Shown here: positions 51,737-57,850 of the stretch, piece after piece
How the letters are laid out: every line of letters starts with the position of its first letter
How positions within the stretch are numbered: the stretch's first letter is position 1
From: Bifidobacterium breve
GTDB lineage: Bacteria; Actinomycetota; Actinomycetes; Nanopelagicales; Nanopelagicaceae
Assembly: GCA_945885625.1 (NCBI GenBank)
Contig: CAMCYS010000001.1
Location: forward strand, 248,001 to 312,000
Direction: 5' to 3'
Length of the DNA stretch: 64,000 nt
Program-made: the position numbers and the translations under genes
Notes under the pieces: generated by a model
The model's input: the letters and a program-made list of their open reading frames with translations, nothing else
The model's database searches: none
Told to the model about the DNA's origin: nothing

Positions 51737-52204
51737 CTACTTAGCTAAATTCCAAAGTGCAAGAACAGCTAGTGCTGCTTCTTCGCCTTTATTGCCAATG
51801 CCCAAACCAACATTTGAACGCTCAATTGCTTGAGTTAAGTTGTCGCACATTAGAACGCCAAAACCAACAGGTTTAGACATTGCTAATGAAACCTGCCCAA
51901 CTCCTGAGGTAACGCCTTGGCAAATGTAATCGAAGTGCGCGGTTTCGCCACGCATTACTAATCCAAGTACCACTGCACCATCAAAACCTTGTTCGAGCTT
52001 TATCTGGGCAGCAAGTGGAAGTTCAAAGGAACCAGAAACGGTAAAGATTTCATATTCAACTTGGGCTGCCTTGAAAATTAGCTCAGCACCAGCGGTTAAA
52101 TTATCGCAAATCTCTGGATGCCATTGCGCTGAAATAATCGCTACTTTCTTGCCCTTTAGAGCCTTTAGATTAAGTGATTCTAAAGTTGGTGATGTTCCGG
52201 CCAT
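51737..52204 (-). CDS. ribH: 6,7-dimethyl-8-ribityllumazine synthase
   Basis: Condenses 5-amino-6-ribitylaminouracil with dihydroxybutanone phosphate to lumazine, the penultimate riboflavin step. The phosphate/substrate motifs are SGSFELPLAAQ near residue 58 and LGLVMRGETAHFDYICQGV near 80-98. Length 155 is typical. It overlaps ribBA by 1 nt and is last in the rib operon. Confidence 0.96.
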   Translation of the reverse strand: MAGTSPTLESLNLKALKGKKVAIISAQWHPEICDNLTAGAELIFKAAQVEYEIFTVSGSFELPLAAQIKLEQGFDGAVVLGLVMRGETAHFDYICQGVTSGVGQVSLAMSKPVGFGVLMCDNLTQAIERSNVGLGIGNKGEEAALAVLALWNLAK

Positions 52205-53424
52205 TAGATCTCTCCTAACATGTGCTTCATTTTATCTTTCTTGGTAAGTAAATATGAGCGATTGAATTGATTGACGGTAGGTGCGACGGAGATTACCTGC
52301 GCGGCTCTGCCACTCTTGCCAATGGCATCGACTTTTGCTTGATTATTCGTAATCAATTCAACGTCTTTAATTTCTAATTGATCCAGGATATAAATCAAGT
52401 CCTGCCAGTTGCGAGAATCGTTTTCGTGACCTAATTCAAGATTAGCCGCGATGGTATCTAGGCCAGCATCTTGTAAAAGATAAGCTTTGATTTTTTCACT
52501 CAAGCCAATGCCACGCCCTTCCTGACCACGCAGATAGATGATGTAGCCCGCACCTTTTTCGGCAATTAAATTAAAGGAGCTCTTTAACTGTTCACCACAA
52601 TCACAACGTAGCGATCCGAAGGCATCACCTGTTAAACATTCAGAGTGTGCTCTGATTAGAGTCTGATCTGAACTTCTTGCTTCAGTGCCAAATTTCAACA
52701 CTGCGTGGTCAACACCAGATTCACCCTTGATTGTGGCAATCTGCCACTCGCCACTTTCATGTGGCAGCTGAGCCCACATGAGTTGTTCAGCCGCAGTCTT
52801 GTCCTTGGGTAATTTTGCAATTGCGTACTTTGTCAGTTCTTCAATTGTTATAACTGGAATCTGGAATTCTGCCGCAAAATCAAATACCTGTTGGCCTTTC
52901 ATCACGGTTCCGTCATCATTTACTAATTCAGAGAGGACGCCTGACTCACCGTGGTTAGCAAGTTGGCAAAGAACTAGTCCAGCTTCGGTGTGACCGCTTC
53001 GGCCGGCCAAACCTTGCGGGTGAGCAATCAAGGGAAAGACATGGCCAGGGCGGATGAAATCTGCAGCTTTGCTACTTTTTGCTGCCAACTTACGCACTGT
53101 ATTAGCACGTTCTGTAGCGCTAATGCCAGTTGTTAGGCCAGCTTTAGCGTCGATTGATACTGTGAATGCAGTACGACGTAGATCCTCATTATCTCTAACC
53201 ATGATCGGCAAATTCAAATCTCTTGCTCGCTTGGCACTAATGGCTGAACAGATGATGCCGGATGTGTGGCGAATTAGAAATGCCATATCTTGATCGGTTA
53301 TTTTCTCGCCCGAGATAATTAAATCGCCTTCATTCTCGCGATTTTCATCATCTATCACAATCAAGAATTTACCTTGAGCAAAGATCTCAACCGCTTCGGC
53401 AATGTTTTTTAGAGTTCTATCCAT
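52204..53424 (-). CDS. ribBA: RibBA: dihydroxybutanone phosphate synthase / GTP cyclohydrolase II
   Basis: Fused bifunctional enzyme supplying both riboflavin precursors. Residues about 1-205 are the DHBP synthase half with the acidic motif DDENRENEGDLI; residues about 210-406 are GTP cyclohydrolase II with the zinc cysteines in CLTGDAFGSLRCDCGEQ and the catalytic loop RGQEGRGIGL. It overlaps ribE by 8 nt and ribH by 1 nt. Both active sites look intact. Confidence 0.96.
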   Translation of the reverse strand: MDRTLKNIAEAVEIFAQGKFLIVIDDENRENEGDLIISGEKITDQDMAFLIRHTSGIICSAISAKRARDLNLPIMVRDNEDLRRTAFTVSIDAKAGLTTGISATERANTVRKLAAKSSKAADFIRPGHVFPLIAHPQGLAGRSGHTEAGLVLCQLANHGESGVLSELVNDDGTVMKGQQVFDFAAEFQIPVITIEELTKYAIAKLPKDKTAAEQLMWAQLPHESGEWQIATIKGESGVDHAVLKFGTEARSSDQTLIRAHSECLTGDAFGSLRCDCGEQLKSSFNLIAEKGAGYIIYLRGQEGRGIGLSEKIKAYLLQDAGLDTIAANLELGHENDSRNWQDLIYILDQLEIKDVELITNNQAKVDAIGKSGRAAQVISVAPTVNQFNRSYLLTKKDKMKHMLGEI

Positions 53425-54025
53425 TTTGGTTATCTCTTTTAGTTAGTCGCTCAACATATTTGGCTAGAACATCAACTTCAATATTTACTAAATCGCCAAA
53501 TTTCTTGGCAGACAAATTTGTTTTGGCCAAGGTTTCTGGGATCAGCCAGACGGTTATTTGATTTGCGTCATCAGCAACCGAACCAACGGTGAGTGAAACG
53601 CCATCGATACAGATTGAACCTTGCGAAACCACATATTTCATAAGTTCGCTTGGGAACTGGATATCCATCTGCAGCCATTTTTCGCCTGGCGCCAATTTAG
53701 TAATTGATCCAGTGCCATCAATGTGGCCCTGCACGATGTGGCCGCCGAGGCGCGAACTAACAAGGGCCGCGCGTTCAAGATTTACGGCATCACCTTTTTG
53801 CAAATTTTGCAATGAAGTCAGTTTAAGAGTCTGCGTCATAACATCGACTGAAAAAGATTTGCTATCAGACTTAGTTACAGTCAGGCAGGTGCCGTTGACT
53901 GATACGGAATCTCCTACCTGCAATTGATCAGCAAAAGGCACTGATTCAAAGGTAATTACCGCAGAGTCGGTGGCCATCTCGATGCTTGCTACTTTGCCTA
54001 AGCTTTCAACTAAACCAGTAAACAT
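53417..54025 (-). CDS. ribE: Riboflavin synthase alpha chain
   Basis: Dismutates two lumazines into riboflavin and the pyrimidine intermediate. The N-terminus MFTGLVESLGKVASIE and the duplicated lumazine-binding domains (about 1-96 and 97-190, with ISVNGTCLTV-like and CIDGVSLTVGSV segments) are typical. 202 residues. It follows ribD without a gap and overlaps ribBA by 8 nt. Confidence 0.96.
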   Translation of the reverse strand: MFTGLVESLGKVASIEMATDSAVITFESVPFADQLQVGDSVSVNGTCLTVTKSDSKSFSVDVMTQTLKLTSLQNLQKGDAVNLERAALVSSRLGGHIVQGHIDGTGSITKLAPGEKWLQMDIQFPSELMKYVVSQGSICIDGVSLTVGSVADDANQITVWLIPETLAKTNLSAKKFGDLVNIEVDVLAKYVERLTKRDNQNG

Positions 54026-55036
54026 TTAGATCCCCGTTTCCTTGGTTAGCGTGATTTTTAAATCATTTCCGAATTGCGCTACATCTCTGATTACAAAGTC
54101 CATTTTTTCCTTGATATTGGTTGCCCCTAGGTCGCCAATAAAAGACTGGCCAGAGCCCAACAAACTGGCAGCTTGGAAAATTACTAACTCATCAATTAGG
54201 CCAGCTTTAAGAAGTTCGGTGCCTAATTCACTGCCGGATTCAACAAAGACTTGGTTGAAGTCGCGATCAGCACATAGCTTTAGCAGCTCAGAAAAATCAT
54301 GGCTTTTAAGAAAGACGGTCTCGGCTGCATCATCATGCAAATTGAACTCACTAGGAATCTCACGTAGACCCATCACGACTCTGACTGGATTGGTTTTTCT
54401 AGTTGTTTCAATATCGCGAGGAATCAAATTGGGATTATCAGCCAGAGCCGTTGCAGTACCAACCAAGATTGCGCTGCTCTCATAACGTAACTTGCTAACT
54501 TCGGCGCGTGAATCTGGGCCAGTAATCCATTTTGAACTGCCATCGATTGCAGCAGTTCGGCCATCTAGCGTTGTAGCGATTTTCCAGATGAAATATGGGC
54601 GGCTATTTTTAATTTTATGTAGCCAGGCTCGATTACTGTAAGCAATCTCATCAACTTCAGAGTTGAGTACAACTTCTATTCCGGCAGCTTCGAGCGCTCT
54701 GGCTCCCCCACTTGCTAACGAGTTAGGGTCGCGAACTGCATAAACAACTCTTGCCATGCCAGCTTTGATAATTGCTTCGGTGCACGGCCCAGTTTTTCCC
54801 TGATGATTACAAGGTTCTAGCGTTACAAATAGCGTTGCGCCTTTTGCTGATTGACCAGCTTGTTCAAGTGCGACAACCTCGGCATGTGGGCCACTCTTGT
54901 GGAAACCTTCGCCAATAATTGCACCGTCTGGGCTAACAACAACTGCGCCAACAATCGGATTAGATCCAGTTAAACCCAGGCCAAGGCAGGCTAATTCATT
55001 AGCTCGCTTGAGCGTTGAAATATCTAACTCGCTAAT
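54026..55036 (-). CDS. ribD: RibD, bifunctional riboflavin deaminase/reductase, with an apparent AUU start
   Basis: Catalyses the deaminase and reductase steps of riboflavin synthesis. The track shows only residues 94-336; the frame continues upstream with the full deaminase zinc site HAE (51-53) and PCNHQGKTGPC (Cys76, Cys85). A TGA stop precedes an ATT at 55036, and no ATG, GTG or TTG lies between the stop and the domain. ATT sits 6 nt after GGGAGG, and from there the protein reads SELDISTLKRANELA, a normal RibD N-terminus. So AUU is the most likely start; a single-base error in an ATG is the alternative. Confidence 0.88.
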   Translation of the reverse strand: MSELDISTLKRANELACLGLGLTGSNPIVGAVVVSPDGAIIGEGFHKSGPHAEVVALEQAGQSAKGATLFVTLEPCNHQGKTGPCTEAIIKAGMARVVYAVRDPNSLASGGARALEAAGIEVVLNSEVDEIAYSNRAWLHKIKNSRPYFIWKIATTLDGRTAAIDGSSKWITGPDSRAEVSKLRYESSAILVGTATALADNPNLIPRDIETTRKTNPVRVVMGLREIPSEFNLHDDAAETVFLKSHDFSELLKLCADRDFNQVFVESGSELGTELLKAGLIDELVIFQAASLLGSGQSFIGDLGATNIKEKMDFVIRDVAQFGNDLKITLTKETGI

Positions 55037-55150
55037 GTCGCACCTCCCTCAAGAAATCTTTAGTAGCGATTTCCGGGGTGCCTAATCTGCAATCAGAGTT
55101 TCAGCTCTGAACGCCAAACCTAGGCAGGCACGGTTAGCCCACCTAAATCA
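55037..55150 (-). promoter_or_regulatory. ribD leader expression platform
   Basis: Between the riboswitch aptamer and ribD the leader can form TGCCTA...TAGGCA with an inner CAGAG/CTCTG hairpin, and alternatively CACC(CC) can pair with the GGTG of the ribosome binding site GGGAGGTG. This suggests translation control by Shine-Dalgarno sequestration. No T-run terminator is seen. Confidence 0.5.
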
Positions 55151-55271
55151 TGTTTCCTCTCATCCGGACTTTAACCGTCGGTCTTGGAATTACACCAAGT
55201 CCACCGAGCGCTGGATGCGTTCGGGTCGCAGACTTTCACTGCCGGTTCGGAATTACACCGACCCCGGAAAC
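55151..55271 (-). promoter_or_regulatory. FMN riboswitch (RFN element) of the rib operon
   Basis: Minus-strand sequence carries the conserved RFN blocks in order: GGGGTCGGTGTAATTCCGAACC, then CCGGCAGTGAAAGTC, GGTGTAATTCC and GACGGTTAAAGTCCGGATGAGAG. P1 forms between GTTTCC (55271-55266) and GGAAAC (55157-55152). It senses FMN and should lower ribD-ribE-ribBA-ribH expression when flavin is plentiful. Its 5' edge overlaps the last codons of fbiC. Confidence 0.93.
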
Positions 55272-57850
55272 AATTGCTTAACGTTAGCACGGCGAGAGAT
55301 GGCCTCGCGATCGGCCGAAACTGGGCCATAAGTAGTGGTTCGTTGGCGTGCGGGGCGACTGGCTAAATGTGCGATTTCTTCTAACTCGGCGACTGAGCGA
55401 AGTGAGCCGTTGGTGCTGCCCGCCATGCGACTAATGGTTTCTTCCATCAAAGTACCGCCGATGTCATTTACGCCGCCGGCTAATAATGAGAGAACGCCAT
55501 CTGGGCCGTTTAAACCTAACTTCACCCACGAACATTGAATGTTGTTGATTGATCCAGCTAATAACAATCTGGCCATGGCATGGACAACTCGATTTTCGCG
55601 AATTGTTGGGCCAGGTCTAGCAACACCAGCTAAATAAATTGGTGATGAGTAGTGCACAAATGGCAGTGGTACAAATTCAGTAAAGCCACCAGTCTCGTCT
55701 TGTAGATTTCTAATAGTGAGAATGTGGTCATACCAATGTGATTCATTATCAACGTGGCCATACATCATGGTCGCTGAAGATTTAATGCCGAGTAGATGTG
55801 CCTCACGCACAATTTCCAGCCATGCTTTTGCGGGCAACTTTCCTTTTGTCAGGATCCAGCGAATCTCATCATCTAAAATTTCAGCAGCTGTGCCAGGAAT
55901 TGTGCCCAGGCCAGCAGCTTTGGCTCGCTTTAGCCACTCTTTATAACTAATGCCAAGTTTTATCGCGCCGCTGAAAATTTCCATCGGCGAGAAAGCATGG
56001 ATATGCATATCTGGGGCAACTTCTTTAACTGCTTTGGCAACCTCAAAATAGATATCACCAGATAGATCGGGGTGAATTCCGGCCTGCATGCAAACTTCAT
56101 TTGCACCTAGCAGCCAGGCTTCATTCACTCGTGACTTAATCTCATCAATAGATAACAAATAAGAATCAGCATCTGTTTTGCGTTGCGCAAAAGCGCAGAA
56201 TCGGCAGCCGGTATAACAAACATTTGTGAAGTTGATATTTCGATTAACGACATAGGTAACATCATCGCCAACTAGTTCAGCACGCTTTTCATCGGCTGCC
56301 TTAACCAATAGCTCAAGCTCGGGGCCTTCTGCGGCAAAGAGAGTAAGCGCCTCTGCCCTAGTGATTGACCTAGGATTTTGAACAACTTTAGTTAGGGCAG
56401 CTACAAAAGATGATTTAATAAAAACCGAACTAGAAGTATCTAAGGACTTGAGTTTTTCAGAGATGCTCTGCCAGTCACCATAAATTGAATCAAAGTCAGA
56501 GCGGGAATCAGCTTCGCGGCCGGTGGTATCAATTGTGTTCCCTAAATCTGTGCGGCCCAAGCTCTGCAAGCTCTCACCACTTTCCTGCCAAGGCATGCCA
56601 ACCGGAATTACTTTTAAAATAGCTAAACCTGCAGCATCAGATAGCGCAGCTATGTGGTTCTTCAGCTTTGGATCAATCCAGCGCTCAGGAGATTTAACAT
56701 AATTAGAATAAATCGTTAAACGTGCATTTAATTCAAAACCAGCTGACTTGCTTTGTTTAGTTAGGAGTTCAATTTCAGGCCATGGTCGCTCAGGATTGAC
56801 ATGATCGGCGGTAACTGGTGACACCCCACCCCAATCATCAATGCCGGCTGAAATAAGTTCGGCAAATTCCGAAGGTTCAGATAAATTCGGTGGTGCTTGA
56901 ATTCGCATGCGGGGCCCAAAGATCAATCGGGCAACTGCGATACAGGCGAGGTATTCCTGCCGATCGGCATCTGGCGAATTTCGCATCGCAGTATCTTCTT
57001 TTGCGCGGAAATTCTGAATTATGATTTCTTGAATATGTCCATAAGTTTTGGCGATTTCGGCCAACTTTAAAAGTGAATCAGCACGCTCTGATATTGATTC
57101 GCCAATGCCAACCAGAATTCCGGTAGTAAATGGAATGTTTAGTTTTCCGGCATCTTCGATTGTGCGCAGTCTTACGGCAGGATCTTTATCGGGGCTACCA
57201 AAGTGAACTTCACCTTTTTCAGTAAATAGTCTGGTGGCCGATGTTTCCAGCATCATTCCCATGCTTGCTGCTACTGGCCGCAACCTAGACATTTCTTCAA
57301 AGCTCATCACGCCAGGATTTAAATGTGGCAACAACCCGGTTTCTTCTAGAACCGCAATTGCACAAGCACGTAAATAATCCAAAGTTGAAGAATATCCGCG
57401 TTCAGATAACCATTCAGCGGCAACATCCCAGCGCTCTTCAGGACGATCGCCCAACGTAAATAGCGCTTCAAGACAACCTGCCTTTGCACCAGCTTTAGCG
57501 ATTGCTACAACTTCGGAGATTTCTAAATAGGCAGCTGGCAAATGATTTGGGGTGGTGGCAAATGTGCAGTAATGGCAACGATCACGACATAGCCGAGTGA
57601 GTGGAATAAAAACTTTAGGCGAGAAAGTGATGACACCTGGCCGACCAAGTTCAAGTAAACCCGCATCACGAACTCGAGCTGCTGCCTCACATAATTGGCT
57701 TAGTTCTTCATCACGCGCAGATAGCAATACCGAAATTTCATCAAGATTTAGGGTTGCCGCATCGCTAGCCCGACGAAGGGCACGGCGCATTGAACTTTCG
57801 ATGACTGGCCTCCCGCCTCTCTTTAGACTTGGAGAATACTTGATTTCCAA
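55253..57850 (-). CDS. fbiC: FbiC, FO synthase (CofG-CofH fusion) for coenzyme F420
   Basis: Twin radical-SAM protein that joins tyrosine and 5-amino-6-ribitylaminouracil into the deazaflavin FO. The N-terminal CofG half has CRDRCHYC (Cys88, 92, 95) and the C-terminal CofH half has CYTGCRFC near residue 545, each the CX3CX2C iron-sulfur site. At 865 residues it is the actinobacterial fused form. The second substrate is a riboflavin-pathway intermediate, and the gene lies immediately upstream of the rib operon; its stop codon is inside the FMN aptamer. Confidence 0.95.

Follow-up and report, generated by a model that had tools for sequence, protein, structure and literature searches.

An apparent AUU start codon of ribD beneath an FMN riboswitch in a lineage of freshwater actinobacteria

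Where does translation of ribD begin when its reading frame offers no usual start codon ahead of the catalytic residues? The question arises at a riboflavin operon within the window, i.e., the whole 64-kb stretch of DNA analyzed here (Table 1). The minus-strand frame runs TGA GGG AGG TGC GAC ATT AGC GAG TTA GAT ATT TCA ACG CTC AAG, and from the first ATT of this line it remains open through 336 codons to a TAA at 54028-54026. The first in-frame ATG, GTG or TTG is the ATG at 54757, codon 94 (93 codons past the ATT), which yields the only ribD open reading frame with a canonical start (243 aa); from the upstream stop to the conserved RibD N-terminus, the frame contains no canonical start. A preliminary description of this DNA had pointed to the ATT and stated that the zinc motif lies 5' of every in-frame ATG, GTG or TTG. 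It does: H51, C76 and C85, numbered from the ATT, all precede codon 94. The GGGAGG that it placed at a 6-nt spacing from the ATT was confirmed, and the complete anti-Shine-Dalgarno match is GGAGGTG. Its statement that the ATT comes directly after a stop stands for the upstream TGA but not for the immediacy, as four codons (12 nt) lie between the two.

Table 1. Features of the ribD locus and its leader (positions in the window).
Feature	Position	Strand	Remarks
FMN riboswitch aptamer (RF00050)	55148..55275	-	105.6 bits; gathering score 66.2
SD-sequestering hairpin, predicted, GCACCCCGGAAATC...GATTTC...GGGAGGTGC	55040..55081	-	MFE fold and conservation
In-frame stop TGA	55049..55051	-	closes the frame upstream
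Shine-Dalgarno (SD) GGGAGGTG	55041..55048	-	predicted duplex with standard anti-SD, -15.8 kcal/mol
AUU start codon	55034..55036	-	5/5 lineage species; the two nearest outgroups have GTG at this site
Fold-back of SD and start codon onto codons 12-18, predicted	54983..55050	-	inferred; without covariation
Codons 1-19, nearly invariant DNA in five species, including synonymous sites	54980..55036	-	
ribD coding region, AUU to TAA	54026..55036	-	336 codons and stop; deaminase, then reductase
ribE, riboflavin synthase	53417..54025	-	ATG abuts the ribD stop (TAAATG)
ribBA	52204..53424	-	8-nt overlap with ribE
ribH, lumazine synthase	51737..52204	-	1-nt overlap with ribBA

The protein read from the ATT has the N-terminus of an ordinary RibD, as the preliminary description held. 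It scores 307 bits against TIGR00326 (cut-off 156.35) and covers profile positions 2-342 of 343, contains both expected domains (PF00383 and PF01872), and, beginning at residue 8 or 9, aligns with solved structures of RibD. The product from the ATG at 54757 would keep RibD_C and lose the whole zinc deaminase domain. Because the full profile match requires a start at or near the ATT, the protein itself supports a start there. The situation is rare both locally and among relatives. When the 64-kb window was scanned for coding-like frames that are preceded, ahead of their first canonical start, by a long coding-like stretch, ribD alone (97 codons) was returned; no further AUU-start genes were detected in the window. 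Of 99 ribD loci in which the motif could be read, all but this lineage's L004/L082 and one contig-edge fragment have a canonical codon at a sufficient distance upstream; in L002, L003 and L005, the only such codon is the ATG at codon 8. Gene-finding software limited to ATG, GTG and TTG would call a 243-aa reductase fragment without the deaminase in the window; it would likewise truncate ribD in L004, and in L002, L003 and L005 it would start at codon 8 and return a protein seven codons short.

To place the start codon in its evolutionary setting, 84,980 species genomes were scanned, and four close relatives (L002-L005) matched from RibD residue 1. All four carry ATT at the homologous place behind GGGAGGTG; none has the ATG at this site that the preliminary description had named as grounds for abandoning its proposal. 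Pairwise ribD DNA identity of 79-85% indicates that these relatives and the window organism are distinct species, and each is a separate metagenome assembly. The same four were again the only other lineage members among 135 genomes of the genus, and none was found outside the genus among 296 genomes of the family. The lineage comprises five related freshwater actinobacteria; judging from a 52% match to L008, Planktophila lacus by name, they probably belong to Candidatus Planktophila or to a genus close to it.

Conservation of the ATT alone is less informative than it may seem, since codons 1-19 are nearly invariant and the whole block is frozen. At the column of the ATT, the two nearest outgroups (G042 at locus L084 and G089 at locus L118) have GTG, in GTG AGC GTT CTA GAG AGC and GTG AGT GTT TTA GAA AGC, respectively. 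They share with the ATT lineage the serine after the start codon and an N-terminus of the form MS-x-L-(D/E), encoded in the window by ATT AGC GAG TTA GAT. The differences between the two are mostly synonymous, which shows that translation there covers these codons, beginning with the GTG, and the GTG in the same column together with the matching N-terminus indicates that the ribD ATT occupies an inherited start position. More distant ribD copies of the genus have ATG, or in a few cases TTG, at the corresponding place.

The Shine-Dalgarno sequence is strong throughout the lineage. Its predicted duplex with the anti-SD, assumed to be standard because the 16S gene is absent from the assembly of the window organism, ranges from -14.0 to -15.8 kcal/mol in the ATT lineage, from -7.3 to -14.0 kcal/mol for ATG-started ribD in the genus, and stands at -16.8 kcal/mol in the GTG outgroups. 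As the latter are equally strong, the strong SD predates the change to AUU and may have permitted it. Non-AUG initiation is also at home elsewhere in this genome. infC is the textbook non-AUG gene, and the window genome's own copy starts with ATC (AAAGGAGCAAAA ATC ACA ACT GAC CCA CGT ATC AAC GAT), with no canonical start codon in its frame; of the 30 infC copies of the genus that could be read, 26 start with ATC and 4 with GTC. Outside infC, very few natural AUU starts are known to us. With five species in agreement, a homologous outgroup start, a fitting SD and an infC that uses AUC, the ribD AUU start is, as read from sequence, real and conserved, and the preliminary description spotted it correctly. 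Separately, the apparent GTC-start infC copies (L134, L136, L140 and L155) share the pattern AAGGAGC[AT]CAAA GTC A[CG]C ACT GAA CCG/CCA; a GTC start is otherwise known from Streptomyces sigR (PMC5472188).

The start codon sits, as had been claimed, beneath an FMN riboswitch, whose aptamer lies 5' of the SD. In minimum free energy (MFE) folds, the 5' arm of the sequestering hairpin can pair instead with the 5' strand of aptamer P1, which frees the SD: GCACCCCGGAAAUC is predicted to pair either with GAUUUC...GGGAGGUGC, hiding the SD, or with the P1 strand UUUCCGGGGU, releasing it. The element CACCCCGGAAATC is common to the ATT lineage and both GTG outgroups. These predicted structures suggest that the ribD leader is a conventional translational FMN switch; partition-function calculations of accessibility on growing transcripts did not tell the FMN-bound state clearly from the free one, and we give them no weight. 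A variable hairpin (55084-55132) stands between aptamer and SD sequester, formed by GCGTTCAGA...TCTGATTGC in the window and by GCGCTCAGA...TCTGAGCGC in L002; the ATT lineage has this hairpin, and both GTG outgroups lack it as a block of about 25 nt. At the other end of the leader, the stop and last codons of the upstream cofGH/fbiC gene (FO synthase) lie within the aptamer (55253-55275), so that gene end and riboswitch share sequence.

Downstream, the operon runs ribD-ribE-ribBA-ribH and is tightly packed, with ribD at its head. This packing is one of three features absent from the preliminary description, the others being the codon-8 ATG of three relatives and a conserved, predicted fold-back in the first codons.

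The fold-back bears on why the AUU has been kept, as it could be retained for RNA structure rather than for weakness. Under this reading, the third-base U is needed in a predicted 7-bp inner stem that pairs CAUUAGC (55037-55031) with GCUAAUG (55003-54997; codons 12-14), extended by a predicted outer stem of GAGGGAGGU (55050-55042) with GCCUGCCUU (54991-54983; codons 16-18), and the coding region would act as a second sequester of SD and start codon beyond the riboswitch. Within codons 2-23, 15 of the 19 amino-acid-invariant codons are also codon-invariant, relative to 64 of 221 in the rest of ribD (Fisher p=2e-5); in ribE, taken as a control, the count is 7 of 11, a sample too small to tell whether gene starts are generally conserved. 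The predicted unpaired probability of the AUU is 0.00-0.01 in 5/5 species, AUG, GUG, AUC or AUA in its place would cost about 1-4 kcal/mol in predicted folds, and an equally tight pairing of the start is reached in only 5-10 of 1000 synonymous recodings (0.5-1%). No change touches the inner stem, and predicted loops hold most of those that do occur, but the comparison of variable with paired sites gives p=0.09, the total folding energy is just 0.8-2.0 sd below that of synonymous recodings, GCTAATG turns up in 16-20% of such recodings, and the GTG outgroup starts are likewise predicted to be mostly paired. Covariation is absent, with 12 of 12 inner pairs unvarying across the five species; because these pairs never vary, it is silent, neither for nor against the stem. 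In L005, three outer-helix pairs are broken and a shifted pairing is adopted. All of these comparisons were made post hoc on five related species that are not independent. We treat a functional fold-back hairpin as tentative and somewhat doubtful, and an AUU retained for its structure as possible, short of probable.

Other explanations concern whether the AUU is the start at all, or whether it matters. The true start could be another near-cognate or canonical codon, notably codon 8, with the ATT block as untranslated RNA. That codon is ATG in three of the five species (L002, L003 and L005), and a start there would retain the deaminase domain; the window, however, has ACG at this codon and L004 has GCG, the GGGAGG lies about 27 nt away and no SD stands at the right distance, and the outgroups start at the position of the ATT with matching MS-x-L-(D/E) residues, all of which makes this reading very unlikely. 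The codon-8 ATG could nonetheless act as an additional or alternative start in the three species that have it. Errors of assembly or sequencing, or a frameshift that links the frame to a start further upstream, might be suspected because the window and its relatives are metagenome assemblies, yet we give them practically no weight. The same ATT recurs in four other species, and this five-species agreement rules out a sequencing error at the ribD start. The upstream frames are closed by stops (TAA, TAG, TGA) at varying sites in the relatives, which disposes of the frameshifted start that the preliminary description had named as a possible refutation; one such candidate, a mini-ORF of the window in a neighboring frame (TTG...TAG), was rejected, as it is broken by TAA in relatives. 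Finally, drift may have fixed the AUU as a slightly harmful change, tolerated if little RibD is needed and without a regulatory role. Demand for flavin enzymes is low, and the genome is small and streamlined; against this, a single T-to-G change would suffice to regain ATG, yet it occurred in 0/5 lineages, and the surrounding block is constrained, so that we consider drift improbable. Translation of ribD from the AUU is, as a whole, the best explanation and in our judgment a highly probable one, directly supported by the sequence and its conservation, the homology of the start position, the SD, the aptamer and the operon layout.

We propose the following model for this AUU start. In the ancestor of the five species, AUU would have taken the place of a canonical start, either the GTG still seen in the nearest outgroups or an ATG, and the strong SD would draw the initiator tRNA to this mismatched codon. 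Initiation would then be weak, probably lower than from AUG by an order of magnitude, as the precedents of infC, pcnB and cvfC1, and of sigR with its GTC, lead us to expect. Like other AUU/AUC starts, that of ribD may well be IF3-sensitive. FMN would add a second layer: with the aptamer bound, GCACCCC...GGGAGGTGC could hide the SD, and with the aptamer free, the P1 strand would pair with CACCCCGGAAA and expose it, leaving the AUU to limit initiation on the released mRNAs. Since ribE, ribBA and ribH follow either without a gap or with overlaps, a weak ribD start may cap the whole operon through translational coupling. A deliberately weak ribD initiation is plausible, in keeping with both the conservation and the literature. 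A more elaborate version, in which the AUU was fixed for weak, IF3-gated initiation and also because its U completes a stem that hides start and SD, would extend the expression platform into the coding region; we think it unlikely, but if a platform does span the start codon, FMN, the level of IF3 and local RNA folding would jointly set vitamin B2 synthesis.

Several known systems resemble this one in part. Escherichia coli infC and pcnB use AUU (PMC9410913). infC (AUU/AUC/AUA) and ribD share a conserved near-cognate start at which the initiator tRNA is helped by the SD; infC, however, is autoregulated through IF3, whereas ribD has no known IF3 feedback link and lies under an FMN riboswitch. 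pcnB is, like ribD, an enzyme gene, and is translationally limited by its AUU (PMC9410913, PMC13009471); unlike ribD, it belongs to another phylum, does not head a biosynthetic operon, and has no reported riboswitch. Closer in architecture are Staphylococcus cvfC1 (AUU) and ccpN (AUA), in which a strong extended SD likewise accompanies a conserved non-canonical start; cvfC1 also heads its operon (PMC13009471). In S. aureus, non-canonical starts with such SDs, including the AUU of cvfC1, reach about 10% of AUG (PMC13009471). The cvfC1 and ccpN starts were verified by ribosome profiling and have no reported riboswitch, whereas the ribD start is read from sequence. Within the actinobacteria, Streptomyces sigR likewise has an extended ribosome binding site (AGGAGGTG) and was overlooked by annotation (PMC5472188); it differs in starting with GTC rather than ATT, and its repression by IF3 is experimental (PMC5472188).

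The leader, in turn, resembles the translational FMN riboswitch (RFN element) of other ribD operons, in which an aptamer, an antisequester and an SD sequester precede ribD. In the genus, ordinary RFN-ribD arrangements lead into an ATG, GTG or TTG; this one leads into AUU, with early codons that may provide an extra sequester. A search of the open-access literature, outside which most subscription journals fall, returned nothing relevant on an AUU start under a riboswitch. A conserved AUU in a riboswitch-controlled biosynthetic gene would combine metabolite control with start-codon discrimination. Overall, ribD joins the short list of natural AUU starts, and its riboswitch setting is the unusual part.
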